44,214 nucleotides of DNA. It comes from a virus. Every line of letters starts with the position of its first letter. The stretch's first letter is position 1. Both the position numbers and the translations under genes were made by a program. The stretch spans positions 1 through 44,214 of IMG/VR virus record IMGVR_UViG_3300030329_002700; one strand, 5' to 3'. The notes below the pieces were generated by a model. It did not search any database. It was given only the letters and a program-made list of their open reading frames with translations, and was not told where the DNA came from. Positions 1 through 44,214 of the stretch are shown here, in pieces.

Positions 1-99
1 CATTCGATGCCGAAACGACGCTTGAGAATGAACTGGAATTTCGAGGCTTGATGGTCGAGTACGACAGGCAAAAAGACTTTATTTTTCTCAACGATCTTG
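1..99. repeat. Left copy of 99-bp terminal direct repeat
   Basis: Bases 1-99 are identical to 44116-44214. The copy lies inside an open reading frame whose phase is preserved across the join (44115 is divisible by 3), so the two ends are one locus of a circular sequence. The odd length and coding position fit an assembler k-mer overlap better than a physical terminal repeat. Confidence 0.95.
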
Positions 100-3000
100 A
101 GAGTCGCGGAGTTGACCTTTCTCAGATTAGCGAAAACCAAACGATACCCGTCACTGCCGTACAGGACTGGTCCAACGTAGTTCGACAAGACGGATCTGCT
201 GTCGATATCAACATAGAAGATTTTCGGTCTTCGGTATTTTCGGAAAACGATTTTGAGTTGTGGGTTAGCGACACCGAGGAGGGTGGATTTGCGACGCTCC
301 AGTTAAAAAACTGGAACGAGATAAACGAACGCCTCGAAGCGGAAACGGCGGCAGATCAGCGTATAGAAACAATTGAAGATGCTCTAAATCACCCCAGCCA
401 TATGGCAAGAGCGGCGGCTTTTGGCTCAATACTAAACAGTCTGGGCATAGAGTATTCTGAAGCCGGGTCTGAGTTCGCAAGTCGCTACTTTTATGTAGAA
501 ATGCCCGCAGAAGTATTTGGGGACATCAAGGTCCGCTTCGCTGATCATATGCGTCAAAGCCGTTTGCATGGAGAAGCTGATTTCAACATAGCTGATGGCG
601 GTTTCGACACCGCGATGGATGCGCTTGACGCAATCGTGAAATCCTATAATCAGGCCGAGGTCTTTCAGCCCCGCCGCGGTGACGGCCCACGCGGCTCGTT
701 TACGCCAGGTGCAAACTTTGGCGAGGGCGGGCGCTCCACCATACGATTGTTCGAAAACGCGGACCTGACCACCACGCTGCACGAACTGTCTCATTTCTAC
801 CTGGAGATGATGCGCGATCGGGCAAAGCGCCCGATGGCAGCGGAACAGCTGAAGCGCGACTGGTCCACGCTCGAAGACTGGTGGGCAAAGAACCCGGACC
901 TGATTGCGGAGAAGGCCAACAAGGAAGCCCAGGGCCGGGGCATGGACATCGAGGTAACGTCCGAGCAAGCCGCTGCCTACAGCGCCAATGGCACAACCGG
1001 TAATGCGGATCTCGATATGATCCTGTTCGTGGCGCAGCATGAAGTGACTGCGGATGCCCACGAAATCTATCTCATGGAAGGCAAGTCGCCATCGCTGAAA
1101 CTGGCGGAGGCGTTCGAGCGGTTCTCGGCGTGGATGATCCGGGTTTACGGCGCTGTCACGAAGCTGGGCGTCAACCCGCCGCAAGAGGTCAAGGAAGTGT
1201 TCGATCGCTGGCTGGCCACCGAAGCAGAGATCAAGCAGGCCGAAGAGTTCTCCAGCGCGGCGGCGGTGTTTGAGACATTTGAAGAATTCGACGGCACCGA
1301 GGCCGAATACGAAGAATACAAGGCCGCGGAGACACGCGCTCACGCCCAGGCAAAGCAGAAGCTGATGAAGCGCAAGATGCGCGACATCGAGCGTCAGCAA
1401 ACGGCGGAAGGGCAGGCGGTCAAGGACGAGGTCTATGCCCAGGTTGAAAACGAGATTAACCAGATGCCGGTCTACCGTGTCTGGGAGTGGCTTGCCCGCG
1501 GCCGCGTCCTGGCTGGCGAGGATGTGCCGGAGTTTCTGGAATCCGGCAAACGGCTTTCAAAGACCTGGCTGGTCAATAACTTTGGCGATGACATCGTCTC
1601 TATCCTGCCCAAGGGCGGCAACCGCATCCATCAACGTGATCTCCCTGGTAATGAGGGATTGAACCCCGATGTTGTGGCCGAGGCATTCGGGTTTAAAAGC
1701 GTCGATGAAATGATCGATGCGATCCTGGCGGCACCAAACCGCAAGCAGTACCTGGCGCAGGAACAGGAAGCGCGGCTGCGCGATGATCCGCGCTGGCAGG
1801 GCGACACGGTGCAAAGTGGCAACATCGAACAAGCTGCGATCGAGGATGTTCATAACGACGAACGCGGCACGTTCCTGCATCTCGAATTGCAGGCTATCAA
1901 CAAGAAGGGCGAACTGGGTGAGCCGTCTGCCCGCCAGGTTGCCAAGGAAACAGCGCGTCGGATCCTGGGGCGCATCAAGGTCGGTGCCGCCATCACGCCC
2001 GGTAAGTACCGCGCGGCCGAGGCCCGGTATGCGAAGGAAGCCCAGGAAGCAGTCGCCGCGGGTGATTTCCAGGCGGCAAGCGCGGCCAAGTACCAGCAGC
2101 TGCTGAACCATTATCTGTATTCGGAAAGCCTGAAGGTCCGCGAGGATATGGACAAGGCGGTGAAATACGTCCGCAAGTTCTCCGGCCCGGCCAAGCGCCT
2201 TCGCAATATCGATTTCGATTATGTCGAGCGGATCCAGCAAATCCTGTCGGCGTTCCAGTTCTCGGCGCGGCTGTCCGACAAGAAGCGCGAGAAGCTACAG
2301 GCGCAGGCGCTCGAAGAGTGGGCGAAGAAGAAGAACGAGGACGAGGGTGCCGAGATCCTGATACCCCAGGAAATTCTCGATGCCGATGAGAAGACCCATT
2401 ACCGCGATATTCCGGTGTCGGAGTTCCGCGCACTGATCGACACCATCAAGAACCTTGAAGCCCAGGGCAGGCTGGCCACGAAGATCACGCTGGCCGGCGA
2501 GAAACTCGAACTTGATAATTTTGCCAGTGAGGTAAACGACAGCATTTTTGATAACTGGAAGGGCGGCTTCAGAAACATCAATGAGCCGCCTACCGAGCGC
2601 CAGGGCAAGGTGTCCAGCCTCAAGCGCAAGTTCGGCCTGCGTAAGATGGAATTCGTTATGCGCCGCCTGGACGGGTTCAAGACCGGGCCGATGACCAAAA
2701 TATTCCGCATGATTGCGGATGCCGACGATGCGTTTGCCGAGCGCCGGGCCGAAGCGGCGACTAAGTTCCGCGAGATCTGGGGCGTATACGGGCCGCTTGA
2801 ACTTCGCCAGATGGCAAACAAAAAAATATTTATTCGTGAAATCAATACGTCCCTGACGAAGGACGCAATTCTCGCCGTCGCCTTCAATGTCGGCAATGAA
2901 GACAACCGCGCAAAGCTGATGGAGGGGTATGGCTGGAACGACACCCAGGTGGACGCCATCCTTCGTTATCTCGATGAGCGGGACTGGGAAGTTGTGCAGG

Positions 3001-4622
3001 CAGTATTTGATCACCTGGACAGCTACTGGGCTGAAACCGTGCAGCTGGATACCGAGCGCCGCGGCTATCCGGCATCAAAGGTTGAAGCGCAGCCGATTGT
3101 CCTGGACGGCGTTGAGCGGGCAAAGGGCGGGTATTATCCGTTGAAGTGGGATTATCTCGCGGACGGCCGCAACCGCGACGACCTGATGGAACCCTATGAT
3201 CTGTTAAAGATGGGCAGCCAGTCGATGTCGTCCCACCCGTCTACCAGCACCGGGCGCACGATCGAGCGACAGGCAAGCGCCGGCGGCCGCAAGGTGCGCC
3301 TGGAAGGTCTGAACGTCTACCTGAAAGCGGTCGATGACACGATCCACGATCTGTCCTGGCGGGGCACGGTCAAGGATGTCACCAAGATTATGAACCATAA
3401 GGATGTCCGAACCGCGCTGCTTCAGACAATGGGCCGCGATTTCATGCAACAGTTTAACGACTGGTTCAGCGATAGCGTTGTCGGCGACATGAATGATCCA
3501 CGCACCGCCGATGAGATTTTCCGCATTCTTCGCGGCCGCATCAGCGTCGCCACAATGGGCTGGAAAGTATCGACTGCTCTTGTCCAGCCGCTTGGGTATT
3601 TCTCAACAATGTCGCGCTTTGTCCAGGATTACGGCATTGCCCGCGGCGGGTATTATTCCCTCAAGGGCATCAAGGATTTTTACGGCAATCCTGCCCGCAT
3701 GAAAGAACGCATCGATTTTGTGATGGAGCGATCGCCCATGATGCGGGAGAGGTCAAAGACCTTCGATCGTGATGTCTATGACAACCTCAAGCGTTTGCGT
3801 AAGGGCCGCTACGGCGAGGTCGAGGCGTCGTTTTTCTGGCTGACATCGAAGCTACAGCTGGCGGTCGATATGCCGACATGGATGGGGGCGTATGAAGCTG
3901 CCCAGGCAAATGATCCATCGATGACCGAGGAACAGGCAGCGAAGGAAGCCGACAGTGTTGTGCGGATGACACAATCCTCGGGTGCCGCCAAGGATCTGAC
4001 GAACTTCCAGCGGGGCGGCGAAGGCAAGAAGCTGTTCTCGTTCTATATGACGTTCTTCTCGGCAATGACAAACATGATGGAAGATCAGTTCGTCATGGCA
4101 AAACAGAACCGCAAATATGTACCGCGGGCCATTGCAAGCCTGTTCCTGCTTACGTTTATGCCGGTGGTTATGGAGGAAGGCATCAAGTCGATCCTGGGCG
4201 TGGGCGGCCCTGACGAGGACGACGAAGAGGGCTGGGGTGAATACCTGGCCAAGAAATGGGCTTCGTTCTCGATCGGCGGCATACCGGTTGTGCGTGACAT
4301 AGCAAATGTCATGCTCACGGATTTCGACTACACCTTCTCGCCCGCTGCCAGGGTGCCGGAAATGATCATCAAGGCAGGCACCCAGGTGAAGGAGGTCGTT
4401 TGGGATGAAGATGGAATTACCTTCGACAGCGAAGAAATAGACCGGAAACTTGCCAAGTCCCTGGTAGATGCTGCATCGATTGTGATCCCGCTGCCGGCAA
4501 GTCAGATGAAGCTGACGGGTGAGTATTTCTACGATTACTGGGAAGGTGAGCAAGAGCCTGACAACTGGGCCAACTTCCTCGCCGAGGCGTTCTACCGGAA
4601 AGACCCGAAGGACTATCAATAA
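1..4622 (+). CDS. Giant polyvalent virion protein, C-terminal part (residues about 2270-3809)
   Basis: This is the continuation of the gene that begins at 37308; the reading frame is open from base 1 and the first in-frame ATG here (48) is not the true start. Numbering from 37308, a linker of the type VFQPRRG with RGSFTPG lies at residues 2490-2505. It is followed by a metallopeptidase-like domain with H-E-L-S-H at 2530-2534 and a downstream A-H-E-I-Y segment that would supply a third, glutamate, zinc ligand. Residues of about 2700-3600 are long, charged and helical, with coiled-coil character. A hydrophobic segment at about 3647-3665 precedes a C-terminal region resembling the large polyvalent protein-associated domain LPD38. 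Such proteins are packaged in the virion and enter the cell with the DNA. The position between the internal virion genes and the tail fibre fits a role in the ejection apparatus, in the place of T7 gp16. No lytic transglycosylase motif was recognised. The peptidase and LPD38 calls rest on motif recognition only. Confidence 0.85.
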   Translation, partial: FDAETTLENELEFRGLMVEYDRQKDFIFLNDLESRGVDLSQISENQTIPVTAVQDWSNVVRQDGSAVDINIEDFRSSVFSENDFELWVSDTEEGGFATLQLKNWNEINERLEAETAADQRIETIEDALNHPSHMARAAAFGSILNSLGIEYSEAGSEFASRYFYVEMPAEVFGDIKVRFADHMRQSRLHGEADFNIADGGFDTAMDALDAIVKSYNQAEVFQPRRGDGPRGSFTPGANFGEGGRSTIRLFENADLTTTLHELSHFYLEMMRDRAKRPMAAEQLKRDWSTLEDWWAKNPDLIAEKANKEAQGRGMDIEVTSEQAAAYSANGTTGNADLDMILFVAQHEVTADAHEIYLMEGKSPSLKLAEAFERFSAWMIRVYGAVTKLGVNPPQEVKEVFDRWLATEAEIKQAEEFSSAAAVFETFEEFDGTEAEYEEYKAAETRAHAQAKQKLMKRKMRDIERQQTAEGQAVKDEVYAQVENEINQMPVYRVWEWLARGRVLAGEDVPEFLESGKRLSKTWLVNNFGDDIVSILPKGGNRIHQRDLPGNEGLNPDVVAEAFGFKSVDEMIDAILAAPNRKQYLAQEQEARLRDDPRWQGDTVQSGNIEQAAIEDVHNDERGTFLHLELQAINKKGELGEPSARQVAKETARRILGRIKVGAAITPGKYRAAEARYAKEAQEAVAAGDFQAASAAKYQQLLNHYLYSESLKVREDMDKAVKYVRKFSGPAKRLRNIDFDYVERIQQILSAFQFSARLSDKKREKLQAQALEEWAKKKNEDEGAEILIPQEILDADEKTHYRDIPVSEFRALIDTIKNLEAQGRLATKITLAGEKLELDNFASEVNDSIFDNWKGGFRNINEPPTERQGKVSSLKRKFGLRKMEFVMRRLDGFKTGPMTKIFRMIADADDAFAERRAEAATKFREIWGVYGPLELRQMANKKIFIREINTSLTKDAILAVAFNVGNEDNRAKLMEGYGWNDTQVDAILRYLDERDWEVVQAVFDHLDSYWAETVQLDTERRGYPASKVEAQPIVLDGVERAKGGYYPLKWDYLADGRNRDDLMEPYDLLKMGSQSMSSHPSTSTGRTIERQASAGGRKVRLEGLNVYLKAVDDTIHDLSWRGTVKDVTKIMNHKDVRTALLQTMGRDFMQQFNDWFSDSVVGDMNDPRTADEIFRILRGRISVATMGWKVSTALVQPLGYFSTMSRFVQDYGIARGGYYSLKGIKDFYGNPARMKERIDFVMERSPMMRERSKTFDRDVYDNLKRLRKGRYGEVEASFFWLTSKLQLAVDMPTWMGAYEAAQANDPSMTEEQAAKEADSVVRMTQSSGAAKDLTNFQRGGEGKKLFSFYMTFFSAMTNMMEDQFVMAKQNRKYVPRAIASLFLLTFMPVVMEEGIKSILGVGGPDEDDEEGWGEYLAKKWASFSIGGIPVVRDIANVMLTDFDYTFSPAARVPEMIIKAGTQVKEVVWDEDGITFDSEEIDRKLAKSLVDAASIVIPLPASQMKLTGEYFYDYWEGEQEPDNWANFLAEAFYRKDPKDYQ

Positions 4623-12900: not shown

Positions 12901-13117
12901 CAGCGAATGCGTCCAGTCGCTGATCGATTTCTGACGTTTCTTCTTTGGTCGGCAGCCGATCGAATGCTTCGTCCAGCTGTTCGCGATCCCAGACGCTGAC
13001 CTTGTCCGCTTTTTTCGGCGGGGGCATACGTCCGTCTGCGACCAATTGATCGAACTTGCTGACGCCCAGGGCAACGTAGGCAGCCGCATCCCGGCGTCGC
13101 AATCCGCGCGGCATCAT
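12887..13117 (-). CDS. AlpA/MerR-type DNA-binding protein, probable excisionase
   Basis: This 76-residue protein has a winged-helix pattern near its N-terminus (RRDAAAYVALGVSKFDQLVA, then MPPPKKADKVSVWDREQLDE) that is typical of AlpA-like regulators and phage excisionases. It lies directly upstream of the integrase and overlaps it, which fits an Xis function at attP. The start at 13117 gives the ATGA overlap with the preceding gene used throughout this operon; a GTG nine bases upstream is also possible. Confidence 0.75.
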   Translation of the reverse strand: MMPRGLRRRDAAAYVALGVSKFDQLVADGRMPPPKKADKVSVWDREQLDEAFDRLPTKEETSEIDQRLDAFADGLR

Positions 13118-31031: not shown

Positions 31032-31619
31032 ATGGCGGTTTCCGAGGTATCCATCTGTAACCAGGCGCTTGCCCATATTGGTGCCGAGGCGCTGATCGAG
31101 GCATTGTCCGAGAACACCGAGGAAGCCCGTTTCTGCAATATCTACTATGCGTCTACCCGTGACAGCCTGTTGCGGGCGCATGAATGGAACTTCGCCACGC
31201 GCTATGTCAGCCTGGCGAAGATCGGCACAGCACCGACACGCTGGGAATACCAGTACGCCTATCCCGCCGACGCGCTGAACGCGATCGAGATCGTCAATAC
31301 CGTCGATGCCGACAAGATTGATTTTGAAATCATAAATGACGGCGCGTCTTCTCGCCTGATCGTTACCGACCAGGACGATGCGGAACTGCGCTACACCGCA
31401 AAGATTACAGACCCGACTGTCTTTGATCCGGGTTTTGTCGAGATCCTGTCCTGGGCAATTGCCTACCGCATTGCAGAACCGATTACTGGCTCATCTGAAA
31501 AGAAAAGCGACGCGCTGCGGATCTACTCGGAGACGTATGTGTCCTATGCCGGCCGCGACGCGGATGAAGGGATGGAGGATCCTGCTACTAATCCCAGCTG
31601 GCTCAAGGCCCGCGACTAA
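31032..31619 (+). CDS. Tail tubular protein A-like (T7 gp11-like)
   Basis: The 195-residue protein starts VSEVSICNQALAHIGAEALI and has the helical pattern of the T7 gp11-type adaptor (ARFCNIYYASTRDSLLRAHE, then WNFAT), which joins the portal to the tail nozzle. The stop overlaps the next ATG (TAATG). The start and length agree with that family. Confidence 0.85.
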   Translation: MAVSEVSICNQALAHIGAEALIEALSENTEEARFCNIYYASTRDSLLRAHEWNFATRYVSLAKIGTAPTRWEYQYAYPADALNAIEIVNTVDADKIDFEIINDGASSRLIVTDQDDAELRYTAKITDPTVFDPGFVEILSWAIAYRIAEPITGSSEKKSDALRIYSETYVSYAGRDADEGMEDPATNPSWLKARD

Positions 31620-34357
31620 TGGCAAAGGTCATCAAGGCCAGTTTTACCGGCGGCGAACTGGGTCCGTCGCTCCATGCCCGCGTCGATCTCACCAAGTACG
31701 AAACCGGCCTTGCGACCTGTTTCAATACCCTGATCCACGCGCATGGCGGGGCGTCCAACCGCCCAGGCACGGAGTTTATCTGCGAGGTAAAGGACAGCAC
31801 GAAGGCCGTCAGGCTGATGCCGTTTTCCTTCAATACCGAGCAAACGTATTGCCTGATCGCGTCTGACAGCAACATGCGGTTCATCAAGGATGCCGGCCAG
31901 ATTGTCGAGGCAACGAAGACAATTTCAGCGGCCACAAGGGCCAATCCCTGTGTGGTAACAGCAACCAGCCACGGCTACCAAAATGGGGAAGAGGTGTTCA
32001 TCTCCGGCGTTGTGGGCATGACGCAGCTGAACGGGCGAAACTTCCGGGTTAGCAACAAAACCGCAAATACGTTCGAACTTCAGGATCTTGCCGGCACCAA
32101 CATAAATTCCTCTGCGTTCACCGCGTATACATCAGGCGGCACCGCGGCGCGGGTCTACACAATTACCACGCCATACCCGGAAGCGGTTCTGTTCGACCTG
32201 AAGAAAACCCAGTCGGCCGATGTGATGACGTTTTGTCACCCAAGCTATGCGGTGAGGGATCTGACCAGGACAGCCCATACCTCCTGGTCGTTTACCGAAG
32301 TAGAATTCAGCCCGACGCAGACATTTGTGACCAACCTTGCTGTCACGGCAAACACAACCGGTTCGGTTACCGATCGATACACTGTCACCGCCTATAATGA
32401 GGAGGATGGCGAGGAAAGCCTTGCCGGTATCTCGGGCCACAAGGCCATCAGTAATATTACACAAGCCAACCCGGCGGTTGTAACGACGGCAACGCACGGG
32501 TTTGTAGATCACGATGAGGTTTTGCTTCAAAACATCGGCGGCATGACCGAGTTGAACGGTCGGCGTTTCAAGATCAACCAGCTGTCGTCCACCACGTTTG
32601 AACTGACAGGTGAAAACACAAGCGGCTACACCGCCTATACATCAGGCGGCACAGCTGCCCTGACGTTTGTTGAATTAACCAACAGCAACAGCACGCGCGA
32701 CAACACGATAACCTGGACCGCGAGTACAAACGCCGACAGCTACAACGTCTACCGCGACGTGAACGGCGTCATGGGGTTCATCGGATCTGCCGAAAATCCG
32801 ACCTTTACCGACAACAACAAGGAACCCGACGAGACCGACACGCCGCCGAAAGAACGCAACCCGTTCCGCGGCGAAGACAATTTTCCATCAACCGTCAGCT
32901 ATTTCGAGCAACGAAAGGTCTACGCCGCTACCAATAACAAGCCGCAAACGATCTTTTTCTCGCAGTCGGCAAACTACGACAACATGACGTTTTCATCGCC
33001 CCGAAAGGACGATGACAGCATCACAAGAACGGTCGCCGCCAGAGAAGTCAATTTAATACGCCACCTTGTGCCTTTGTCCGACCTGATTTTGCTAACATCT
33101 GGAGGAGAATGGAAAGTATCCGCGGGATCCAACGAGGTCATCACGCCTTCGTCCATCATCGTAAAGCCGCAAGAGTTCCGCGGTGCCAGCAAGGTCGAGC
33201 CGATCGTCGTCGGCAATACCGTTCTGTATGTCCAGGACCAGGGCAGCACGGTACGCGATCTTGGCTATAAGCTGGAAAGCGACGGCTATACCGGCACCGA
33301 TCTCAGTATCCTGGCAAATCATCTTTTCTACGGGTTTTCGATAATTGACTGGGCGTACCAGGAGAACCCGCACAGCGTGGTGTGGTGTGTGCGATCCGAT
33401 GGCGTTCTGCTTGGCCTGACCTATCTGCGCGAACATGAAGTCTGGGCCTGGCATCGCCATGAACTGGGCGGTGAGTTCCAGGGCGGCCATGCTGTCGTTG
33501 AGAGTGTTGCGTGCATATCGGAGGGAAGCGAGGACGCGCTTTATATCTGCGTAAAGCGCACGATTGGGGGCGCAACCAAGCGATATATCGAGCGCCTGCA
33601 TACCCGCGTGTTTACCGATGTCGAGGATGCCTTTTTTGTGGACAGCGGCCTGACGCTGGACAGCCCTGTCACCATTACCGGGGCGACAGCCGCCAACCCG
33701 GTTGTCGTAACTGCGCCGTCGCATGGGTTCAGCAACGGCGACGTTGTTGATATCGAGGATGTTGTCGGCATGACCGACATCAATAAAAATGGCTGGATTG
33801 TTGCGGATAAGACAACAAACACATTTGAATTGCAGAATTCAAACAGCACGGACCTGGACGGATCCGCGTTCACCGCCTACGCCTCTGGCGGCAAGGTCCG
33901 AAAAGCCGTGACATCGATTTCGGGGCTACACCATCTTGAAGGGCAGACGGTCTCGGCGCTGGCAAACGGATTTGTCGTTTCGGGTCTCACGGTCAGCAGC
34001 GGGGCCGTGACGCTGCCGAACGCTGCCAGCCGCGTGCATATCGGCCTGCCGTATGAGGCAGCGATCGAAACGCTGAACCCGGAAGTGTCGGGCCAGTCGC
34101 GGGCTACGATCCAAAGCGACAAAAAACGAATCTCGAACATAACCGTGCGCGTTGAGAATACCCGGGGCATATTCATCGGCCCCGACAGCACACGCACCGT
34201 CGAGATGAAACAGGGGCTAAACGACCTGACAACCGGCGATCTGTCGATGTCGATCCGTCCAACCTGGAACACAAACGGCCGCGTTTACATCAAGCAGCCG
34301 CATCCGTTGCCCATGACAATCCTGTCAGTGATCCCGGACATCAATGTCGGAAGCTAG
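31619..34357 (+). CDS. Tail tubular protein B-like (T7 gp12-like nozzle) with three FCCH-like repeats
   Basis: The 912-residue nozzle protein starts AKVIKASFTGGELGPSLHAR and DLTKYETGLATCFNTLIHAH, which are typical of gp12-type nozzles of BPP-1-like phages. Three copies of a domain of about 60-70 residues occur at about 108-178, 283-345 and 692-760 (for example VVTATSHGYQNGEEVFISGV, then TANTFELQ and TAYTSGGT), each with a GMT-[DQE]-[LI]-N core. Similar segments are often annotated in phages as ubiquitin-E1 FCCH-like domains; the name implies fold similarity, not ubiquitin activity. They probably decorate the tail. The gene overlaps the next by 14 bp. Confidence 0.85.
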   Translation: MAKVIKASFTGGELGPSLHARVDLTKYETGLATCFNTLIHAHGGASNRPGTEFICEVKDSTKAVRLMPFSFNTEQTYCLIASDSNMRFIKDAGQIVEATKTISAATRANPCVVTATSHGYQNGEEVFISGVVGMTQLNGRNFRVSNKTANTFELQDLAGTNINSSAFTAYTSGGTAARVYTITTPYPEAVLFDLKKTQSADVMTFCHPSYAVRDLTRTAHTSWSFTEVEFSPTQTFVTNLAVTANTTGSVTDRYTVTAYNEEDGEESLAGISGHKAISNITQANPAVVTTATHGFVDHDEVLLQNIGGMTELNGRRFKINQLSSTTFELTGENTSGYTAYTSGGTAALTFVELTNSNSTRDNTITWTASTNADSYNVYRDVNGVMGFIGSAENPTFTDNNKEPDETDTPPKERNPFRGEDNFPSTVSYFEQRKVYAATNNKPQTIFFSQSANYDNMTFSSPRKDDDSITRTVAAREVNLIRHLVPLSDLILLTSGGEWKVSAGSNEVITPSSIIVKPQEFRGASKVEPIVVGNTVLYVQDQGSTVRDLGYKLESDGYTGTDLSILANHLFYGFSIIDWAYQENPHSVVWCVRSDGVLLGLTYLREHEVWAWHRHELGGEFQGGHAVVESVACISEGSEDALYICVKRTIGGATKRYIERLHTRVFTDVEDAFFVDSGLTLDSPVTITGATAANPVVVTAPSHGFSNGDVVDIEDVVGMTDINKNGWIVADKTTNTFELQNSNSTDLDGSAFTAYASGGKVRKAVTSISGLHHLEGQTVSALANGFVVSGLTVSSGAVTLPNAASRVHIGLPYEAAIETLNPEVSGQSRATIQSDKKRISNITVRVENTRGIFIGPDSTRTVEMKQGLNDLTTGDLSMSIRPTWNTNGRVYIKQPHPLPMTILSVIPDINVGS

Positions 34358-34811
34358 TGTACAGCCCCTGGACGAGGAAACCCTCGCAGAATGCGCTGCG
34401 AAGGCGCGTGAGATCGATCGCCAGGAAGCCATGCTTCAGACCGGCCGGCCGCTTGATGAGGCCATGTGGCGCTCCTATCGCATGTCAACGGGCTGTTATG
34501 CCGGGCGGTGGGGCGACGACCTTGTTTGTGTCTGGGGCGTTGCTGCCCTGGCACCCCTGGAGGGGATTGGTCAGCCGTGGATGGTGGCAACGCCAGTGAT
34601 TGACCGTGCAGCGTTTCCGTTTCTGCGTCATTGTTGGTATTATCTCAACAAAATGAAGACTGAAAACGATTTCCTCTGGAACGTGGTCTGGGAGGAAAAC
34701 ACTGCTGCGCGACAGTGGTTGTCCTGGATGGGGTTTGAAATGAAACAACCGCGGAAAGTAGGTCCGTTCAACCGTAATTTCATTCCGTTCGAGTGGTCGG
34801 CAAATGTGTGA
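34344..34811 (+). CDS. T7 gp13-like internal virion/acetyltransferase-fold protein
   Basis: The 155-residue protein has the pattern of the DUF2833/gp13 family, with a GNAT-like fold (GRWGDDLVCVWGVAAL, then RAAFPFLRHCWYYLN). In T7, gp13 is an internal virion-associated factor in this position. The acetyl-CoA binding motif of true acetyltransferases is not clear, so catalytic activity is doubtful. A family B operator-like palindrome lies inside the gene (34633-34649). Confidence 0.7.
   Translation: MSEASVQPLDEETLAECAAKAREIDRQEAMLQTGRPLDEAMWRSYRMSTGCYAGRWGDDLVCVWGVAALAPLEGIGQPWMVATPVIDRAAFPFLRHCWYYLNKMKTENDFLWNVVWEENTAARQWLSWMGFEMKQPRKVGPFNRNFIPFEWSANV
34633..34649. promoter_or_regulatory. Family B operator-like palindrome inside the gp13-like gene
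   Basis: GTTGGTATTATCTCAAC matches all 12 fixed positions of GTTGNNATNATNNCAAC and shares TATTATCTCAACA with the copy at 23791. It lies inside a coding region of the late operon. If bound, it could act as a roadblock on late transcription. Confidence 0.5.
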
Positions 34812-35364
34812 ACTGTTTACGATAGGCACTGCGGCCATCACCGTTATGGACGTTGTCGGTGTGGCGTCCGCTGCAATGGGTGCCATGAGTTCGATGCAGC
34901 AGGCGCAGGCAGCCCAGGACCAGGCGAATTACCAGGCCCAGGTCGCGCGGAATAACGCGATCATAGCCCAACAGCAGGCTGACGATGTGCAGCTGCTGGC
35001 GCGGATGGAGGAAAGCGAGTACCGCACCCAGGTCGCGGGGTTCAAGGGCAAGCAACGCTCGATCCTTGCAGCCAGCGGGTTTGATGCAAACGAGGATGAT
35101 GCGCTTGATATTCTTTCCGACACGGCCGAGATCGGCGAAGTCGATGCGCTGAAAATCCGCAACAAGGGCCGGCGCGATGCGTACCGCTTCCACCTGGCGG
35201 CCCAAAGCGGCCAGGCACAGGCCGACTTATTCAGTATGCAAGCGGCGCAACAGCAACCCGCGACGGCGGGCGGTTTTGCGTTTGGCACCGGCATGGCTCC
35301 CGTCGCTGACAAGTGGATGACGCGCAACCGCGGTAAAACCATCGGGGGTTGGAAGATAGCCTGA
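34804..35364 (+). CDS. T7 gp14-like internal virion protein
   Basis: The 186-residue protein has an N-terminal hydrophobic helix (FTIGTAAITVMDVVGVASAA, then MGAMSSMQQAQ) followed by a Gln/Ala-rich coiled-coil and a C-terminal Gln-rich region. In T7, gp14 is ejected first and forms the outer-membrane pore. The order here, after a gp13-like gene and before a long helical protein, supports the same role. The stop overlaps the next ATG (TGATG). Confidence 0.75.
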   Translation: MCELFTIGTAAITVMDVVGVASAAMGAMSSMQQAQAAQDQANYQAQVARNNAIIAQQQADDVQLLARMEESEYRTQVAGFKGKQRSILAASGFDANEDDALDILSDTAEIGEVDALKIRNKGRRDAYRFHLAAQSGQAQADLFSMQAAQQQPATAGGFAFGTGMAPVADKWMTRNRGKTIGGWKIA

Positions 35365-37304
35365 TGCCGACAGTTCCTTCATTACAATCAGACACGCCTG
35401 GCCGCGTACAAACGCCGGCCTTCAGCGGACAGCAAAATATCCAGACCAACGTCGATATGTTTGGCGGTGGCGCTGCACGGCTGACGGGCATGACCGGGAA
35501 GCTGATGGATGCAGCTGCCGAGGTAGGCGAAAAAGCATTCCTGCGCGGCCAGAAAGAAGACGACGATACCGCACTGCTTGAATTTGAAATGAATTTCGAC
35601 GCCTGGCGTCACGATTATTTGAATAATGAACAGACCGGTCTTTATTCGAAAAAAGGAAAATTTACCCAGAACGCAACGTCAGACAGTCGCACGGCCGTCG
35701 AAAAGTATTTCACCGACGCAATGAAGGCGCACGAAAACAACCCGCGCATTCGCAACCGCCTGCAAAACTATGCCCAGGCGCAGGCACGGTCGCTGACTGG
35801 TGAAGTGTCTACCTATGAGCGCAGCGAAATGGGGACGTATCGCAAAGGGCTTTATGAGGCAAAAGTCGAACGCGCCAGTGAGACGGCGGTCTCTAAAATA
35901 ATAGGAAGCTATGCACCCGCCGGTACGGAAGTATCAAACGAAAAAGCCCGAGTACAACGCGAAGCAACGGCCGCGGTCAGAGAAGGCGTTCGCACGATAC
36001 AGGAAAACGGCAAGCGCCTCGGCCAGTCGAAAGACGAGATCGACAGAAACATCGAGAATTTTCGCGAAGGGGTTGTCGAGAGCGTGGTTAACAACATGCT
36101 TGCCAAAGGCAATGATCGTGACGCTCGCGAGTTCTACGACGCAAACAAGGATCTGGTTACAGACGAAAAAATACGCAACACGCTTGAGAAGTCGCTGGAG
36201 GATGGATCAACCCGCGGGGAGGCCCAGCGCCAAACAAGCAGGATATACAAAGCACACGACAACCAACCTGATCGGCTTGCGGCGGCCCGCAAAGAACTCG
36301 CAAACGATCCAAAGCTGCTTGACGATGTCGTCAAGCGCCTGAACGCCCGCGCAGCTGAAGAAACCCGCCAGCAAAAACTTGAAGATACCGATCGGTTTAA
36401 TAAAGCGAGCCAATGGCTGGCGAAACATAACCCGCCTAAAGGCGAGGACGGCCACAATCCCAATAAAGAGGCTGGAGAGGCGCGGACGTTTGATGATTTG
36501 CCCGCAAATTTGCGGCCAAGGGATGCGCGGCTGCTGTCGGCGCTCCGATCACAAAAACCTGATTTTGATACTGAGGCTTATCAAGCGGTCCTCGATATGC
36601 GCCGCGACTGGATAAACGGCAAAAACAACGGATGGGAAGGCCAGGCGGGGCGCGATGCAATCAAGCTGCTAACCGGCAAGGTCGATGATGGAACCTGGAA
36701 ATCGATCGACGCCATGCATCGCAAAGACACAACGCAAACGGTCAAAGGAGCGGATGCGCGGTCGGCGGTGCGCGAAGGCCGCAAGACAACCAGCCTCAAA
36801 CTGGCATCCACGGAAACCAAGAGGTTTGCGGAGATGTTTGCGCCTGTCACGGGTAAGCCCGGTAAATCAAAAGCCAAAAGAAAAAAGGCAAAACAAAAGG
36901 AAGCCTTGGCCCAGACCGAGGCGCGGCTCCATCAGCTGGTCGATGCCTGGTATGCGAACCCTGATAACGCGGAGAAGCAATTGTCCAAAAGCCAGGTCCA
37001 GAACTGGATTTTTGAAAGCCTGGTCGAAGGCGAGAACGTCTACACCGATACATGGTTGTACAACACGACCGAACGCCAGGCGATGCGCTTCGTTGAGTAT
37101 ATGGAAAACTACAAGGGGCGCGGCATGTTTGAGGTTACCGAAGCCGGCTACGATGAAATGGCGCGGTTGCTCAATGTCACGCCCGAAGCGGTTGCCGGGT
37201 ATGCCAAACAAATTAAAGACGCAGAAACTGAAAGCGGCGAACCATTGCTGGTCACCGTTAAGCGTCTTCGCGCAGCCCACGCGCTGGCAACGGGTGGAAA
37301 CTAA
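35364..37304 (+). CDS. Helical internal virion protein (gp15-like)
   Basis: The 646-residue protein starts MPTVPSLQSDTPGRVQTPAF and is mostly helical and charged, with many Ala, Lys, Arg and Glu in heptad-like patterns and a lysine-rich stretch near 500 (KAKRKKAKQKE). This is the composition of T7 gp15, which lies between gp14 and gp16 and forms a periplasmic tunnel. No enzymatic motif was seen. The ATG was chosen over a TTG 15 bases upstream. The giant gene starts three bases after its stop. Confidence 0.7.
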   Translation: MPTVPSLQSDTPGRVQTPAFSGQQNIQTNVDMFGGGAARLTGMTGKLMDAAAEVGEKAFLRGQKEDDDTALLEFEMNFDAWRHDYLNNEQTGLYSKKGKFTQNATSDSRTAVEKYFTDAMKAHENNPRIRNRLQNYAQAQARSLTGEVSTYERSEMGTYRKGLYEAKVERASETAVSKIIGSYAPAGTEVSNEKARVQREATAAVREGVRTIQENGKRLGQSKDEIDRNIENFREGVVESVVNNMLAKGNDRDAREFYDANKDLVTDEKIRNTLEKSLEDGSTRGEAQRQTSRIYKAHDNQPDRLAAARKELANDPKLLDDVVKRLNARAAEETRQQKLEDTDRFNKASQWLAKHNPPKGEDGHNPNKEAGEARTFDDLPANLRPRDARLLSALRSQKPDFDTEAYQAVLDMRRDWINGKNNGWEGQAGRDAIKLLTGKVDDGTWKSIDAMHRKDTTQTVKGADARSAVREGRKTTSLKLASTETKRFAEMFAPVTGKPGKSKAKRKKAKQKEALAQTEARLHQLVDAWYANPDNAEKQLSKSQVQNWIFESLVEGENVYTDTWLYNTTERQAMRFVEYMENYKGRGMFEVTEAGYDEMARLLNVTPEAVAGYAKQIKDAETESGEPLLVTVKRLRAAHALATGGN

Positions 37305-37307
37305 GTA

Positions 37308-40300
37308 GTGGTAAACCTGTTAGAAAACGACGAGGAAGACATTCTCTCGCAGCCCGACAACGAGGGGCCAGGCGATACGCTGACACCAAAACCGGAAAAC
37401 GATTTTGCTGCCCGGCTAGAGGCTATGGTTCAGCAGCTGGACCAACAGGCAACGGATCTTAACAAGTTTCGGACCAAGCAGTCGGTGTCTTTTGCCGGCG
37501 ATGTCCCGAACCCGGACGACCACGCGGTTGATGTTGAAAATGCCGACAAAACTAATCTGCCGGTAGAGGTCGCCCAGGCGCAGCGCCCGGCATTTGATGC
37601 GGCGGCGCTCGACGCGCAAGTCGAGAAAATGAACCCCGGCTATCTCAAGTGGCTGGCCGATCGCGACAACGCGGCAATCTCCAAGGACGATACATCTACC
37701 CTGGAGCGCATCAGTGCGCTGTGGGACGCCACCAAGGGCGCGTACAAGACCGGTAACGCAATCACCGATGTTGGTTTGCTGGGGTTTAAGAACCTGACCG
37801 GTGACATTACCGATGCTGAATTGCTGGAACTGAAGGCTCGCGAACGCGACCTGGAGCGCCTGCAACAGCAACAGAAGCTGTCCGGGTTTGGGGGCGATAC
37901 CGCACTGGAACAGCTGCTGGCCCCGTCCGGGTTTATCCTGTCGTCGGTCGAAAGCCTGCCGATGCTCATCCAGACCCAGACGGGCAGCCTTGATGAGGCA
38001 ATGCAAGGTGGGTTGATCGGCGGCACAGCCGGCTTTGCTTTTGGCGGCGTGGGTGCGGTGCCGGGGTTCTTTGGTGGCATAGGCGCAGGCTGGCGTGTCG
38101 GCATGGGCCTCGAAGCAGGCAAGCTGGAAGCCGGCCTGGCGTTCCAGGAATACATCACGATGAAGGACGACAACGGGCAACTGCTCGATCGTGACCTGGC
38201 AAGGACGGCCGCGCTGCTGACAGGCGCAGTCAATGGCGGGCTTGAAGTTTTTGCAATGAAAACGCTGCTCAAAGCGGCACCCGGTGGTGAGCAATTCCTT
38301 CGTATGGTTTCCCGCGAGGGTATGAAGGAAGCACTGAAACGCCCGACCTTTCGCCGCGCACTGACGAACTATTCCAAACGTGTCGCAATGGCAGGCGGTG
38401 CTGAAGGTGTCACGGAGTTTCTCCAGGAAACCATGACAACGGTAGCCGGGTCTGTCGCTAAAGCGCTGCAACAGGGCAGGGTGGGCGAACTGGCAACAGG
38501 CGAGTTTTGGGCCAAGACGTTTGGCGAAAGCGCCTATGCCGGTGTCCGCGGTATGCAGGGCGGCGCTGGTACGGCAACGGTGTTGGGAGCGCCTACCGTC
38601 GCGCTTGATGTTAACCGGGCGCGGAACGCGGAACGCGACAAGCTGTGGTTTGATGAACTCGCTGCCGGGGCGACAGAGAGCAAAACCCGCCAGCGATCGC
38701 CCGGCCGCTTTGCTGATTTTATCCGGGAGCAAGCCGCCGGCAGTAATGTCGAGACGGTGTATGTCGATGCCAACCGCTTTGTCGAAATGTTCCAGGGCAT
38801 GGGTTTTGATGCGGATGAAGTCGCCGAGAACTTCGACCTGGACCCCGCTGAGATCGATGCGGCACGGGAAGCCGGCACCGATATAGGAATAGATGTAGGC
38901 ACGTTCGCGGCCAAGATTGCACCAAACGAAGCCCTTTATAAGGGCGTCGAAGCCGATCTCCGTATCACGCCCGACAGCATGACGATGCGTGAAGCGGTCA
39001 AATTCAAAGAGGAAATACAAGCAAACGTAGACGACGAGGTCGAGCGTATAGTCCTTGAAAACGAAGGCGCAAGCGAAACTGAAATTATTTACAACCAGAT
39101 ATTCGGACAGTTGCGGAATGCCGGGCAAGGGCCAGACGCCGCTGATGCGGTGGCGCAAAACGTCGTGTCCGCCGTAGTTTCCCAGGCAGAAATGGATGGC
39201 ATTACGCCGCTAGAACTGTGGGTCCAGTACCCACTTGATATTGAAAGGGTCTTGCCGGAACAGCTGGAGGTAAAGCAGGGCGTCAGTACCGCCCAGGAAG
39301 TCATCATGGAACGCGCCCGCACGGGGCGGCGTCGCACCGAACGCCAGCTGTTCGGGCGGAGCCTGATTGATTTTGTGCGAGACCGCGGCGTTCGTTATGA
39401 CCCGGATGCTGTTGATACGCCAACGCAGTTAAGCATCGAAGGCGGCCGGCTGAATGTCGAGGGCGGGCCTGCAAATCTTGGGGCTGATCCGATGATCGGC
39501 GATCTCCAGGGCATGGATATCGATAAGGATCTGCGACCAGGGGAGCGCCGGGCATTGCGCCCCGAAGGCATGACGCTTGATGACCTGGCGCTTGCCGCCC
39601 AGGAAGCGGGGTATTTCCCGGAAAGGCTGCTGGAACAAGGGGACCGCATCGACATCAACGACCTGGTCGAGGCAATCCGCGAAAACCTTGCCGGCAATTT
39701 TACCTATATCCCTGAAGCCGAAAACATTCAGGACCGCGACCTGGACGCCGCCGCGGATGAACTTGTCGATGCATTGAATTCGATCGGCCTGGATCCGACC
39801 GAAATGACGCTGGACGAAATTCGCGAGGTGATCGATCGCGAACGCTCGAAGGCGGTTGGCGATGGCGGCATAGAGTTGCAGCACTCCGCTTATCACGGCA
39901 CCGGCGCAAGTGAACTGGAAGGCGGGCGCTTTGATATTAGCCGGGTGGGCGATCCCACGGTTGGCGAAGGGCATACGGCTTACGGGTGGGGTCTGTACTT
40001 TGCTTCAGAACGCGGCGTCGCAGAACACTACCGAGCGCAAAATGCGCCGAACACGGTAAAAATAAAAATAAAAGACTTCGATATTGGCGATGGTACGTTT
40101 TTTTCAACCGACACAATGGCGCCGGGTTATGTTTTTCTGAATGACCAGTTTGCCCAGCAATTTGAATGGTTCGCTGCACACAGCGAAAGTTTTGATGTTG
40201 CTGTCAGCGGTTTGAAAGAATGGGCGCAACAAAGAATAGACAACCCATACTACGAAGGGCGACGCGACAAAATTGAACGCGATCTTCGTTTGTTGGATCA

Positions 40301-43300
40301 GCTAACAGAAGACGATGTAACCGTCGAAAAGGGGTCTTTGTACCGCGTCGAACTTCAGCCCGACATCGATGAATACCTGGACTGGGATATTCCGGTCAAC
40401 GAACAGTCCCAGGACATCCAGGACAAGCTGCGGCGGATGCTCAACCCGTCAGAGCATGTCTATTTCGATCTTGACATACACAGCGAAACATACGGCCAGT
40501 ATGTCGATATAAGCGTCGAAGACGATATTTCCATTTGGGAAAAATCGAAGCTGAAATACCAGGACATTGCCGCCGCCAAAGACGATCGTGAGCTAGTTAA
40601 GTTATTGCGTGAAATTGGAGACAGCGAAGAGGAAATAGCCAAACGCCTGGCACAAAAAAAAGAAGTCAGAGATTTCGATGACCCGCGCAGTGATTACTAT
40701 CGCCTGCAAGTATACAACCGCAAAAAGCTAATGGCGGACGCGAACGTAGACGCGATGATGCGCGCACCAACGGGCGGGTTTTTTTATCGAAATCTAAGCG
40801 GGGCGCTGTCAGGGGGTCGGTCAGTTGTGGGGCGCGGCGACCAGGCTACCAGCATGATGCTGCGTGACGCCGGCCTACCCGGCAATCGTTTCCTGGACGC
40901 GCAGCATCGAGGCTGGTCTGATCAGTTGTTTGGGCCTGGCCGGCAGCTGATGTTCAAGGGTGAGCCTGTTCCATCGCACGTTGCAAAACTCATCGCGGAG
41001 CAAAGCGAAACGGCTGCTTTTTTTGATACCACGCAGCCCGATCAACCGCTGACGCAATCGTTACCCGCCGATACCGTCAAAGTGGTTCTTGATGATCAGA
41101 TACTTGAACGATGGCGGCGACGGCTTGAACTTGAACAGCAACCGCCGGCGGAAGAATTAGGCCCGATGGCAACCGCTTCCAATGAAATGCTGGCGCGGTT
41201 CGACGCTCAACGCGATGAGGCTATCGAGATCCTTAGTGAGATGGCAGCCGAACCCGATCAGGTGAAAATCGAGAAGACGGGCGAGGGCTACAACTTCGTT
41301 CTGTATGACGACAGCCTGGTGGATGTGACCGGCAAGCAGGGCATCGATTTCTTCCAGTCGTCGGTGCCGCTCCAGCGCCGCCCGCTTAAAATCGAGGGCA
41401 CCGGCCCAGGTGGGCGGGTTACAAACTGGGATTTTGCCGAGGCGTTGACCGATCGGCATATGGAAAAGCACGGCCGTGTGCTGGATCCAAGCGCCCCCCA
41501 GGACATGAAACTGATTGTCCGGGAAGGCAACCGCGAATTCATTAACCAGGCCCGTCAGGATGATACCGGCGAGGCGTGGTACACCGAAGACATCGCAAGC
41601 GCGATGGAAACCACTGCGGCATATATTCCTGCGTTGCAGGAAAGCCACCCTGACGCTGAATTGTATCAGGAACTGTTCCTGGTAATGACTGCCCTGATGT
41701 CGCCCCAGGAAAAGCCACCGCAAAACTGGGAGAAAGCCAGCCTGGCGTTTGAGGGCTATATCCCGGACGGGCTAATCCCCGATAAGAAGCCCAACGGCAA
41801 AGGCTGGGGCGTCAATGCATTAGCATTCCCGCTGCTACAGCACATGATGGACACGATGGGGCTGAAGGAAACCCTTGTTTGGCTGCGGGAGCCGCATACG
41901 GGTAGAGAGATAGCGGAAATGCGACGCGCTTCCGGGATCTTCAAGGGCGGCGACAAGAGCCAGTCACTGGCACAGTACAAAGCCGCTGAAACCACTTTGG
42001 GCGAGACATATCTCGGCATTTATATGTTCGGGCCAAAAGTCGGCGATTTTATGATGAACTCGACCGGCCACGATCTGGAAGCCGTGACTGTCGATCTGTG
42101 GCTGGCACGTTCCTATAACCGCCATATCGGGCGGTTGCTGGATGTAGGGCCGAAATTAAAGGCCGACCGCAAGATCATCAGCGAAGTCAGGACGCCGTCC
42201 GAACGCAAGTTGATCAAGGCGTGGGTGCGTGAACTGGCCGAAAAAAACGGCATGACAGCAAGTGCAATGCAGGCTGCGTTGTGGTACTATGAACAGAGGT
42301 TATTCAGAAATCATGGCATACAAAGCGAAAGCACCAACTTCAACGGCTCCGCGGTTCTCGCAGCGGAAAGGCGGGGCGTCACTGTCCCCGGAAGAAGCGG
42401 AGATGTTTCTGGAACTCTCCAGGCTGAAGGAGCAGAACAATCAGCTGCGTCGGGACCGACGCTCTTCCAATCAGGGATCCCGGCCGAAGGCGTAACGCCG
42501 TTCTATTCCGCGGTAACCCGCGCAGCCGATGACCTGGCGATTGAGAAAGGCACCGGCGAACAGTTTCTGGCAGCAATTAAAAAGACCGCTGGTGTCCGCG
42601 ACGAGGAGATCAGCTGGATCGGGCTGGATGAATTCCTGGCCGGGCGCAAAGGCGTAACGCGCCAGGAAGTCCAGGACTATGTTCGCGAAAACCAGCTAGT
42701 GATCGAAGAGGTTGTTAAGGCGGGCCGCTTGGTGCAAACGGCAGAAGGACTAGGCGACCGTCAAATGCCAGTCTACGGGTCAAGCGATTTTAACCTGCCC
42801 GGCGGTACGAACTACCGCGAGGTGCTGCTCAAGCTGCCTGTGCAAGATGCGGAAAGAATTAGCGGATACGTTGTTCCGACAAACGACGTCATGGCTGATG
42901 ATATTCTTACAGGTATGTCATTTGAGGGGCTTGAAGATTTAGATTACGGCCGGGCAGTCGATAGGCGCGGAGACGACATTATCGAGTTTAATGACCTGAG
43001 CCGGGGGTCTTACAACCAAGTTAAGCAGATAGTCGAGGCTGCTGGCGGGAGATTGCGCGAAGCTGGCCGAAGCGGCAAAACCGAAACATTCGTCGGCTCA
43101 CATTTCCCGACCGAAGAGAATGTTTTGGCCTGGGTTCGTGTGAACGACCGCATTGGACCCAACGGCGAAAAGATCCTGTTTATCGAGGAAATACAATCCG
43201 ACTGGCATCAGAGGGGCCGCAAGCACGGTTATGATAAAGGCGGCGTCCCCGACGCGCCGTTCAAAAACACCTGGCACGAAATGTCATTCAGGCGTGTTGT

Positions 43301-44214
43301 CGAAATGGCGGCACGGGAAGGCTACGACCAGGTCAGCTGGACACCCGGCGAGGTGCAGGCCGATCGTTATGATCTGAGTAAACAGGTAGACAGCATCCGC
43401 GTTGAAAAGCTGCGCGATGGTGATAAAGCCGGTCAGTATTACGTCACCGCTGAGAAAGACGGCCGAGGTGCCGGCATTGCGGAGGTTGTGACAGAAGACA
43501 AGCTGGCAGGGGTGATCGGCAAAGAACTTGCTGAAAAGGCTATCGCGGATGCCCCCGATAATCCTGACGGGAAAGATTACACCGGCCTTGATCTGAAGAT
43601 CGGCGGCAAGGGCATGAAGAAGTTTTATGACCAGATGGTCAAAAATTATGCCAGCAAGTTCGCCAAGAAATTCGGATCTAAGGTTACGACGACAGAAATC
43701 GAACTGCCTGAAAGTGTCGAGCAAGGGCGTAATATAGATTTTGATGAACTCGAAGCGGATGCGATCGAGTTTCTTAAAGAGCAGGGGTGGCGGTTAGAAG
43801 AAGACCCGGACGGGGTAACTCTACTTTTCGATCCGTCTGGAAACAGTGTGGGAGAGGATCCGGGCGGCGGTGAAATCATCGATTTTGCCGAAAGCCAGGG
43901 TTGGGTAGATCCGTCCGAGGCACAGTTCAGAGCAACCTTAATTGAGGCTAGCAAAAAAGAAGTCTGGACGATGCCCGTCACCGATCAGATGCGGGCGTCG
44001 GTCGGGCAGCAGGGTGTGCCGCTTTTCCAGGGTGGCCAGGCCAGGGATCTTCTCACTGAACAAGACAAACAGGCGGCAGTCGATCAGGCAAATCGGTTCA
44101 GTGACTTGGCGGTTTCATTCGATGCCGAAACGACGCTTGAGAATGAACTGGAATTTCGAGGCTTGATGGTCGAGTACGACAGGCAAAAAGACTTTATTTT
44201 TCTCAACGATCTTG
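37308..44214 (+). CDS. Giant polyvalent virion protein, N-terminal part (residues 1-2302)
   Basis: The gene starts with GTG at 37308 and reads without a stop to the window end, continuing at base 1 and ending at 4622; the whole protein has 3,809 residues. It has an acidic N-terminal part and glycine-rich hydrophobic stretches at about 231-271 and 411-435, perhaps for membrane insertion. An ART-PolyVal type ADP-ribosyltransferase domain lies at about 862-1265: YHGT (862-865), AYGWGLYF (891-898), AEHYR (905-909), EYLDWD (1022-1027) and a closing LPGNRFLD block. A helical module lies at about 1444-1662 (VDLWLAR, then QAALWYYEQ). A module with IEEIQSDWHQRGRKHGY begins at 1959. LFQ linkers stand at 1719 and 2239, where domains change. 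It would be packaged and injected with the DNA; host target and activity are unknown. Confidence 0.85.
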   Translation, partial: MVNLLENDEEDILSQPDNEGPGDTLTPKPENDFAARLEAMVQQLDQQATDLNKFRTKQSVSFAGDVPNPDDHAVDVENADKTNLPVEVAQAQRPAFDAAALDAQVEKMNPGYLKWLADRDNAAISKDDTSTLERISALWDATKGAYKTGNAITDVGLLGFKNLTGDITDAELLELKARERDLERLQQQQKLSGFGGDTALEQLLAPSGFILSSVESLPMLIQTQTGSLDEAMQGGLIGGTAGFAFGGVGAVPGFFGGIGAGWRVGMGLEAGKLEAGLAFQEYITMKDDNGQLLDRDLARTAALLTGAVNGGLEVFAMKTLLKAAPGGEQFLRMVSREGMKEALKRPTFRRALTNYSKRVAMAGGAEGVTEFLQETMTTVAGSVAKALQQGRVGELATGEFWAKTFGESAYAGVRGMQGGAGTATVLGAPTVALDVNRARNAERDKLWFDELAAGATESKTRQRSPGRFADFIREQAAGSNVETVYVDANRFVEMFQGMGFDADEVAENFDLDPAEIDAAREAGTDIGIDVGTFAAKIAPNEALYKGVEADLRITPDSMTMREAVKFKEEIQANVDDEVERIVLENEGASETEIIYNQIFGQLRNAGQGPDAADAVAQNVVSAVVSQAEMDGITPLELWVQYPLDIERVLPEQLEVKQGVSTAQEVIMERARTGRRRTERQLFGRSLIDFVRDRGVRYDPDAVDTPTQLSIEGGRLNVEGGPANLGADPMIGDLQGMDIDKDLRPGERRALRPEGMTLDDLALAAQEAGYFPERLLEQGDRIDINDLVEAIRENLAGNFTYIPEAENIQDRDLDAAADELVDALNSIGLDPTEMTLDEIREVIDRERSKAVGDGGIELQHSAYHGTGASELEGGRFDISRVGDPTVGEGHTAYGWGLYFASERGVAEHYRAQNAPNTVKIKIKDFDIGDGTFFSTDTMAPGYVFLNDQFAQQFEWFAAHSESFDVAVSGLKEWAQQRIDNPYYEGRRDKIERDLRLLDQLTEDDVTVEKGSLYRVELQPDIDEYLDWDIPVNEQSQDIQDKLRRMLNPSEHVYFDLDIHSETYGQYVDISVEDDISIWEKSKLKYQDIAAAKDDRELVKLLREIGDSEEEIAKRLAQKKEVRDFDDPRSDYYRLQVYNRKKLMADANVDAMMRAPTGGFFYRNLSGALSGGRSVVGRGDQATSMMLRDAGLPGNRFLDAQHRGWSDQLFGPGRQLMFKGEPVPSHVAKLIAEQSETAAFFDTTQPDQPLTQSLPADTVKVVLDDQILERWRRRLELEQQPPAEELGPMATASNEMLARFDAQRDEAIEILSEMAAEPDQVKIEKTGEGYNFVLYDDSLVDVTGKQGIDFFQSSVPLQRRPLKIEGTGPGGRVTNWDFAEALTDRHMEKHGRVLDPSAPQDMKLIVREGNREFINQARQDDTGEAWYTEDIASAMETTAAYIPALQESHPDAELYQELFLVMTALMSPQEKPPQNWEKASLAFEGYIPDGLIPDKKPNGKGWGVNALAFPLLQHMMDTMGLKETLVWLREPHTGREIAEMRRASGIFKGGDKSQSLAQYKAAETTLGETYLGIYMFGPKVGDFMMNSTGHDLEAVTVDLWLARSYNRHIGRLLDVGPKLKADRKIISEVRTPSERKLIKAWVRELAEKNGMTASAMQAALWYYEQRLFRNHGIQSESTNFNGSAVLAAERRGVTVPGRSGDVSGTLQAEGAEQSAASGPTLFQSGIPAEGVTPFYSAVTRAADDLAIEKGTGEQFLAAIKKTAGVRDEEISWIGLDEFLAGRKGVTRQEVQDYVRENQLVIEEVVKAGRLVQTAEGLGDRQMPVYGSSDFNLPGGTNYREVLLKLPVQDAERISGYVVPTNDVMADDILTGMSFEGLEDLDYGRAVDRRGDDIIEFNDLSRGSYNQVKQIVEAAGGRLREAGRSGKTETFVGSHFPTEENVLAWVRVNDRIGPNGEKILFIEEIQSDWHQRGRKHGYDKGGVPDAPFKNTWHEMSFRRVVEMAAREGYDQVSWTPGEVQADRYDLSKQVDSIRVEKLRDGDKAGQYYVTAEKDGRGAGIAEVVTEDKLAGVIGKELAEKAIADAPDNPDGKDYTGLDLKIGGKGMKKFYDQMVKNYASKFAKKFGSKVTTTEIELPESVEQGRNIDFDELEADAIEFLKEQGWRLEEDPDGVTLLFDPSGNSVGEDPGGGEIIDFAESQGWVDPSEAQFRATLIEASKKEVWTMPVTDQMRASVGQQGVPLFQGGQARDLLTEQDKQAAVDQANRFSDLAVSFDAETTLENELEFRGLMVEYDRQKDFIFLNDL
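44116..44214. repeat. Right copy of 99-bp terminal direct repeat
   Basis: Identical to bases 1-99; see the left copy. The frame is unbroken through this point in both copies. Confidence 0.95.

Follow-up and report, generated by a model that had tools for sequence, protein, structure and literature searches.

We found that a viral DNA stretch of 44,214 bases (an IMG/VR record, hereafter the window) encodes a giant protein that takes up about a quarter of its length. We read it, with a probability of about 0.5, as a podoviral ejection-type polyvalent protein with a chassis-payload-chassis layout, a swappable central cassette and predicted self-release of the enzymes that it carries. Computed directly were a fixed slot for the payload, the exchange of payloads within near-identical chassis, purifying selection on payloads, an invariant HExxH and an association between a short motif and the metallopeptidase. 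The finding is real and the protein is of a known kind, of which its comparative anatomy makes it a distinct, testable variant. These results suggest that, among the known polyvalent proteins, this is a form that cleaves itself and has an exchangeable payload; both cleavage and injection are predicted.

The giant gene runs across the ends of the record. Joining 37308-44115 with 1-4622 gives one frame of 11,430 nt, 3,809 codons plus the stop, which starts at GTG 37308, leaves the right end, resumes at position 3 and stops at 4622 without an internal stop. Positions 1-99 and 44116-44214 are identical and form a perfect 99-bp direct repeat, a terminal repeat that sits inside a gene. An in-frame TAA (37302-37304) lies just 5' of the gene, so that translation begins at GTG 37308 or further downstream, for example at the ATG of residue 40.

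37308..44115, plus strand: giant gene, part 1, residues 1-2269 plus the first base of junction codon 2270
1..4622, plus strand: giant gene, part 2, the remainder of the junction codon, residues 2271-3809 and the stop
44116..44214, plus strand: second copy of the 99-bp direct repeat at 1-99; the point of circular closure of the record lies within the giant gene
44031..44115, plus strand: orphan stretch without relatives, part 1, starting at residue 2242
1..659, plus strand: orphan stretch without relatives, part 2, ending at residue 2489

The single 3,809-residue frame put forward in a preliminary description of this DNA was thus confirmed by the repeat, the uninterrupted reading and the fact that the N- and C-terminal parts are one gene in relatives (2,052 aa in BPP-1, 2,854 aa in Cobetia phage Carin1, 4,012 aa in Nostoc and Microcystis phages). 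The join across the record ends appears well supported, resting on these relatives and on one BLAST match to a Microcystis phage that crosses the junction (residues 1975-3786) rather than on independent sequencing. The junction falls within a 240-residue stretch that has no relatives, and none of the other viral contigs searched has the junction repeat. A length of 99 bp suggests the de Bruijn (assembler k-mer) overlap of a circular assembly rather than a biological terminal repeat or physical genome end. The size that the same description singled out is large and not unique, as the longest family protein has 4,254 aa (L072) and others have 4,012 aa.

The position of the gene, which is that of T7 gp16 in a podoviral ejection set, was also supported. 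The genes for a GP7-type major capsid protein and a nozzle and the T7 gp13-like, gp14-like and gp15-position genes come before the giant gene, and the gp13-/gp14-/gp15-like order ahead of the giant gene is common to relatives.

34344..34811, plus strand: T7 gp13-like internal virion protein (PHROG 308, E 9e-33)
34804..35364, plus strand: T7 gp14-like internal virion protein (PHROG 418, E 9.9e-23)
35349..37304, plus strand: gp15-position gene, 651 aa, similar to the N-terminal part only of the phage AF structural lysozyme

The match of the gp15-position protein is confined to the N-terminal 250 residues of that lysozyme, and no muramidase or lytic transglycosylase was recognised in the ejection set of the window, in which BPP-1 (Bbp11) and Carin1 (gp33) differ. 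The genome also encodes a terminase, a head-tail adaptor, a primase/helicase and an integrase and therefore looks like that of a complete podovirus, probably a temperate one given the integrase gene (11788-13089, minus strand). Three stretches of the tail nozzle protein (31619-34357) match E1_FCCH, which is ubiquitin-activating enzyme-like (E 1.2e-35); relatives labelled 'FCCH domain ubiquitin-activating enzyme E1' have them too.

The giant protein belongs to the family of BPP-1 Bbp10, PHROG 9880 (E 1.2e-33 and 1.7e-267), with homology over its N- and C-terminal parts. A tblastn search with the C-terminal 1,300 residues matched 42 phage records, including Bordetella phage BPP-1 (Bbp10), phages of Caulobacter, Vibrio, Pseudomonas, Xanthomonas and Cobetia, and cyanophages. 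The first 2,269 residues gave patchy matches only, because the middle of the protein can be aligned with few relatives; in pairwise comparisons, parts of residues ~60-845 and most of ~2460-3790 were alignable. For a wider sample, 80 loci were taken from at least 574 found by a C-chassis alignment search of IMG/VR. The 72 complete members from phages and IMG/VR had an N chassis of 583 aa (sd 36), a slot of 630 aa (sd 516, range 9-2333) and a C chassis of 1257 aa (sd 38), and 60 more, found in genomes of bacteria that are for the most part Proteobacteria, with Planctomycetota and Synergistota also represented, had slots of 1-1107 aa. All 132 complete members therefore show N and C chassis of steady length around a slot of 1-2,333 aa, which is 30 aa or shorter in 10 of them. 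Limnohabitans phage DC33 (L008, PQ492659.1) is filed as Inoviridae, yet its 39-kb genome has the podoviral giant protein in the usual place. In vir555 (L016, BK063671.1), whose assigned host belongs to the Methanomicrobiales, the genes are ordered in the same way and the family protein carries an ART-like payload, making a reach of the family into archaeal viruses possible.

The slot holds different enzymes in different relatives: PBECR1 in BPP-1, PBECR5 in Carin1, LPD23 in AF and ART-PolyVal in BL94, DC33, ctEw122 and ctQRb9. Pfam assignments in 58 slots comprised ART-PolyVal (11), PBECR5 (5), DUF7178 (4), MuF_C, RadC and GNAT (3 each), LPD3, PBECR3 and GGDEF (2 each), and zeta toxin, ddrB-ParB, LPD1, LPD5, LPD23 and PBECR1 (1 each); 35 slots from bacterial genomes had similar payload families by Pfam. 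Payloads are exchanged between close relatives. L041/L044, L050 and L051 are 97-99% identical in the C chassis and 86-99% in the N chassis, with unlike payloads, namely RadC, DUF7178-like and EIQSD modules (1,521 aa) in L041/L044, PBECR5 (679 aa) in L050 and a DUF7178-like module (618 aa) in L051. Similarly, L079 (LPD3) is 85% identical to L094/L097 (no recognised payload), and L055 (RadC) is 83% identical to L075 (PBECR5). In four such pairs, identity was lost ~165-196 residues into the slot and regained 26-29 residues before HExxH. The payload dN/dS values of 0.19 and 0.21 in two pairs (1521 and 1025 codons) indicate purifying selection, so the payloads are maintained and are not debris. The conserved chassis, the exchangeable slot and the motif at module boundaries described below form a comparative result beyond the view of the preliminary description, whose interpretation as a whole was partly supported.

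The two chassis of the window protein and their features are as follows.

37485..39842, plus strand: N chassis, residues 60-845, family-conserved, the upstream border of the payload slot
37485..37751, plus strand: LPD22 domain, residues 60-148 (Pfam E 2e-9, 38.0 bits against a cut-off of 28.6)
37998..38120, plus strand: glycine-rich hydrophobic stretch in the sequence, residues 231-271, with a weak DUF6861 match
690..4562, plus strand: C chassis with metallopeptidase, residues 2500-3790, from family alignments
669..1352, plus strand: putative zincin-type metallopeptidase, residues 2493-2720, with HELSH at 2530-2534 and invariant E2617 and E2624
4116..4172, plus strand: hydrophobic helix, residues 3642-3660, near the C-terminus; several relatives have one too

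LPD22, which lies above the Pfam cut-off, had been overlooked in the preliminary description. The HELSH metallopeptidase noted earlier proved to be an invariant family domain: in two member sets, every C chassis long enough to include the site has HExxH (89 of 89 and 75 of 75), and the H, E and H residues with a downstream glutamate (E2617/E2624 in the window) do not vary across the family. In the BPP-1 relative Bbp10, an HExxH metallopeptidase at residues 700-1000 has been classed among the zincins as CLCA_X (PMC3650047). A model of the C chassis (pLDDT 84) places strands ahead of the HExxH helix; Foldseek with the whole ~1,200-residue model, a weak test of the zincin fold, gave no match in the PDB, nor did a PDB sequence search with the C chassis. 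Payload-type enzymes sought with Pfam in the C chassis of 12 members were absent. The LPD38-like C-terminus of the preliminary description was rejected, as the 12 C chassis gave no Pfam match to LPD38 at E up to 0.1. A second HExxH occurs inside the payload slot of Xanthomonas phage CP2 (L013, HEVLH at 926) and Pseudomonas phage AF (L012, HEVQH at 807).

From the breakpoints seen in relatives, the payload of the window is predicted to span about residues 846-2502. It is about 1,650 aa long and has three modules, an ART, a DUF7178-like module and an EIQSD module; the latter two correspond to the further conserved modules that had been reported without a clear name.

39861..41342, plus strand: putative ART-PolyVal-type ADP-ribosyltransferase, residues 852-1345, with H863, Y897 and NFVLYDD at 1329-1335
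41445..42347, plus strand: DUF7178-like module, residues 1380-1680, with GPK at 1575-1577 and TVDLW at 1594-1598
42477..44012, plus strand: EIQSD module, residues 1724-2235, unnamed, widespread among phages

For the ART, which the preliminary description had also recognised, the family's conserved residues are present. The positions of H863 and Y897 are kept in all 10 ARTs compared, with a GEG..YGWGLYFA block around them in nearly all, and after a long insert NFVLYDD (1329-1335) was matched by pattern to the closing C-terminal NYVIFDD of the family, so that the H, the Y and the acidic residue of the ART-PolyVal H-Y-D set are all found in the window with their flanking motifs. The domain scores 14.5 bits, below the Pfam gathering score of 31.2 bits that relatives pass, and is split by inserts in the window. 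On sequence grounds, both the ART and the zincin assignments are supported.

The DUF7178-like module can tentatively be compared with HhH-GPD DNA glycosylases. The pattern G.K(16-20)D.[HW]..R...R, which endonuclease III itself has, occurs in 55 of 59 DUF7178-like members and not once in 774,000 aa of background, and Foldseek with a two-module model (pLDDT 81) ranked hOGG1 fourth (E 0.055, low TM). The comparison is a lead only, because hhalign of the module against endonuclease III and MutY gave a probability of 1.7% (control 99.5%). A search for endonuclease III across viral contigs gave no result. The DUF7178-like payload could be an injected DNA glycosylase. The EIQSD module is common in phage polyvalent and stand-alone proteins. 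A GNAT fold was considered for it and found no support in profile comparison (hhalign 4%, control 99.6%). A 209-kb Dolichospermum phage (L017, 6796-13959) encodes a 2,387-aa protein with two EIQSD copies.

The payload modules of the window are flanked by a short motif, [LFVIM][FY]Q.

41349..41357, plus strand: FFQ, residues 1348-1350, between the ART and the DUF7178-like module
42462..42470, plus strand: LFQ, residues 1719-1721, between the DUF7178-like and EIQSD modules
44022..44030, plus strand: LFQ, residues 2239-2241, after the EIQSD module
660..668, plus strand: VFQ, residues 2490-2492, before the metallopeptidase

Two more sites lie at residues 494 and 1452 of the protein. Spotted by eye and then tested on a set that includes some of the sequences in which it was first seen, the motif occurred 102 times in the slots of 127 non-redundant members, against 43 expected (z 9.2), and was also above expectation in their N chassis (94 against 61, z 4.4) and C chassis (z 2.1). 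Its strict form was found 22-55 residues before HExxH in 51 of the 127 members, compared with 4% of random windows, and its relaxed form in 87, compared with 14%. Ahead of the EIQSD module, it was present in 7 of 9 zincin-bearing proteins and in none of 21 complete stand-alone proteins without HExxH (Fisher p 1.8e-5); leaving out L192, L074, L072 and L063, the contrast was 3/4 or 3/5, depending on how L090 is counted, against 0/21. Before the DUF7178 module the motif was not enriched (5/42 against 6% by chance). We infer from these positions that the sites are candidate processing sites. Zincins have no known need for Q at P1, and the motif could instead reflect another protease or a non-proteolytic role such as packing or binding.

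In the working that we propose, the N chassis (~60-845) and the C chassis (~2500-3790) would be conserved delivery parts with the exchangeable ART/DUF7178-like/EIQSD cassette between them. Judging by gene position, the protein would be a late product, made alongside the gp13/14/15-like proteins, and its place after packaging would be close to the portal. Like T7 gp16 and the giant RNA polymerase of DEV/N4, with which we draw an analogy, it would enter the host by ejection, either before the DNA or together with it. The metallopeptidase, with which the C chassis begins, would then cut at the module-flanking [LFVIM][FY]Q sites, as motif position and co-occurrence suggest, freeing each enzyme separately, and the ART would modify a target in the host ahead of phage gene expression. 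In its full form, with the metallopeptidase cutting in cis at recurrent sites that bracket interchangeable effectors and one injected chain yielding several host-cell enzymes, this phage payload polyprotein is a tentative reading that we consider possible rather than probable. No virion proteomics for this gene or any family member was found in the literature searched.

The payloads could instead be delivered in one uncut chain, the LFQ-type motif serving as a linker through which the chain binds the portal or a different ejection protein, with a host or envelope target for the metallopeptidase. The N4 virion RNA polymerase with its MPTase domain is packaged unprocessed, and effector roles for MPTases are allowed by Iyer et al. 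(PMC5512222); however, the motif sits at module boundaries, and stand-alone proteins that lack HExxH do not have it ahead of the EIQSD module; we regard an uncut chain as rather unlikely. It is more doubtful still that the payload modules work within the virion or in assembly, as structural spacers or packing aids, and not as delivered effectors. Such a role would suit the placement of the giant gene among late genes and the N and C chassis being the sole universal parts, but slots of 30 aa or shorter in 10 of 132 members make the payload structurally dispensable, the payload families are enzymes of conflict systems, and the ART residues are conserved. That lysis or an attack on the cell wall is the main task of the metallopeptidase and the conserved C part, as 'lysin' and 'lysis protein' labels in Nostoc, Microcystis and Caulobacter phage records would have it, is highly improbable, since the giant protein and 12 C chassis had no match among the peptidoglycan-hydrolase families sought, and relatives have separate endolysins, several with a lytic transglycosylase in the preceding gene.

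Iyer et al. (2017) proposed polyvalent proteins, their injection and their release by zincins/metallopeptidase (PMC5512222). Like those proteins, the window protein is a multi-domain chain with an ART, a zincin and LPD22 near late genes (PMC5512222); unlike domains (LPD22, ART, zincin, DUF7178-like) were found in one chain and the gene among virion and late genes. The main text of that study does not mention Bordetella, gp16, ejection or an LFQ-type cleavage motif (PMC5512222), and the fixed slot, its exchange and the empty chassis are additions of the present analysis. Bbp10 of BPP-1 shares both homologous chassis (29% over 1,316 residues of the C part) and the gene order, but has 2,052 aa and a slot of ~150 aa with PBECR1, whereas the window has a payload of ~1,650 aa with three modules. 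T7 gp16 is likewise the last and largest of a gp13-14-15-16 set; it has no detectable sequence relation to the giant protein, in which Pfam and PHROG revealed no transglycosylase domain. The giant virion RNA polymerases of N4 and DEV are also giant enzyme-bearing proteins with the role of T7 gp16, which for the window protein is predicted from its genes; DEV gp71 (3,398 aa) is ejected into the host in a gp16-type role (PMC10925440). Their chassis is different, and no RNA polymerase domain was matched in the giant protein. Polymorphic toxins, too, combine a constant delivery part with exchangeable toxin-like enzymes (general knowledge; PMC5512222), but the window payload lies mid-chain, not at the C-terminus, and its delivery would be by a phage tail instead of a secretion system.

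Within the literature searched, whose coverage left out most subscription papers and bioRxiv preprints, we found no description of the fixed slot, of payload exchange or of the motif. The processing of polyvalent proteins, both its occurrence and its mechanism, has been a standing question since their proposal, and naturally empty chassis, near-identical chassis with unlike payloads and a candidate cleavage motif make it testable in small phages that grow on laboratory hosts. If our reading is right, it offers a rule for discovering injected effectors, which is to inspect whatever separates the N chassis from the metallopeptidase. A further consequence would be that ARTs are frequent in this short-tailed lineage, with 11 of 58 slots, whereas short-tailed phages were reported to be ART-poor, at 3% (PMC9503650).
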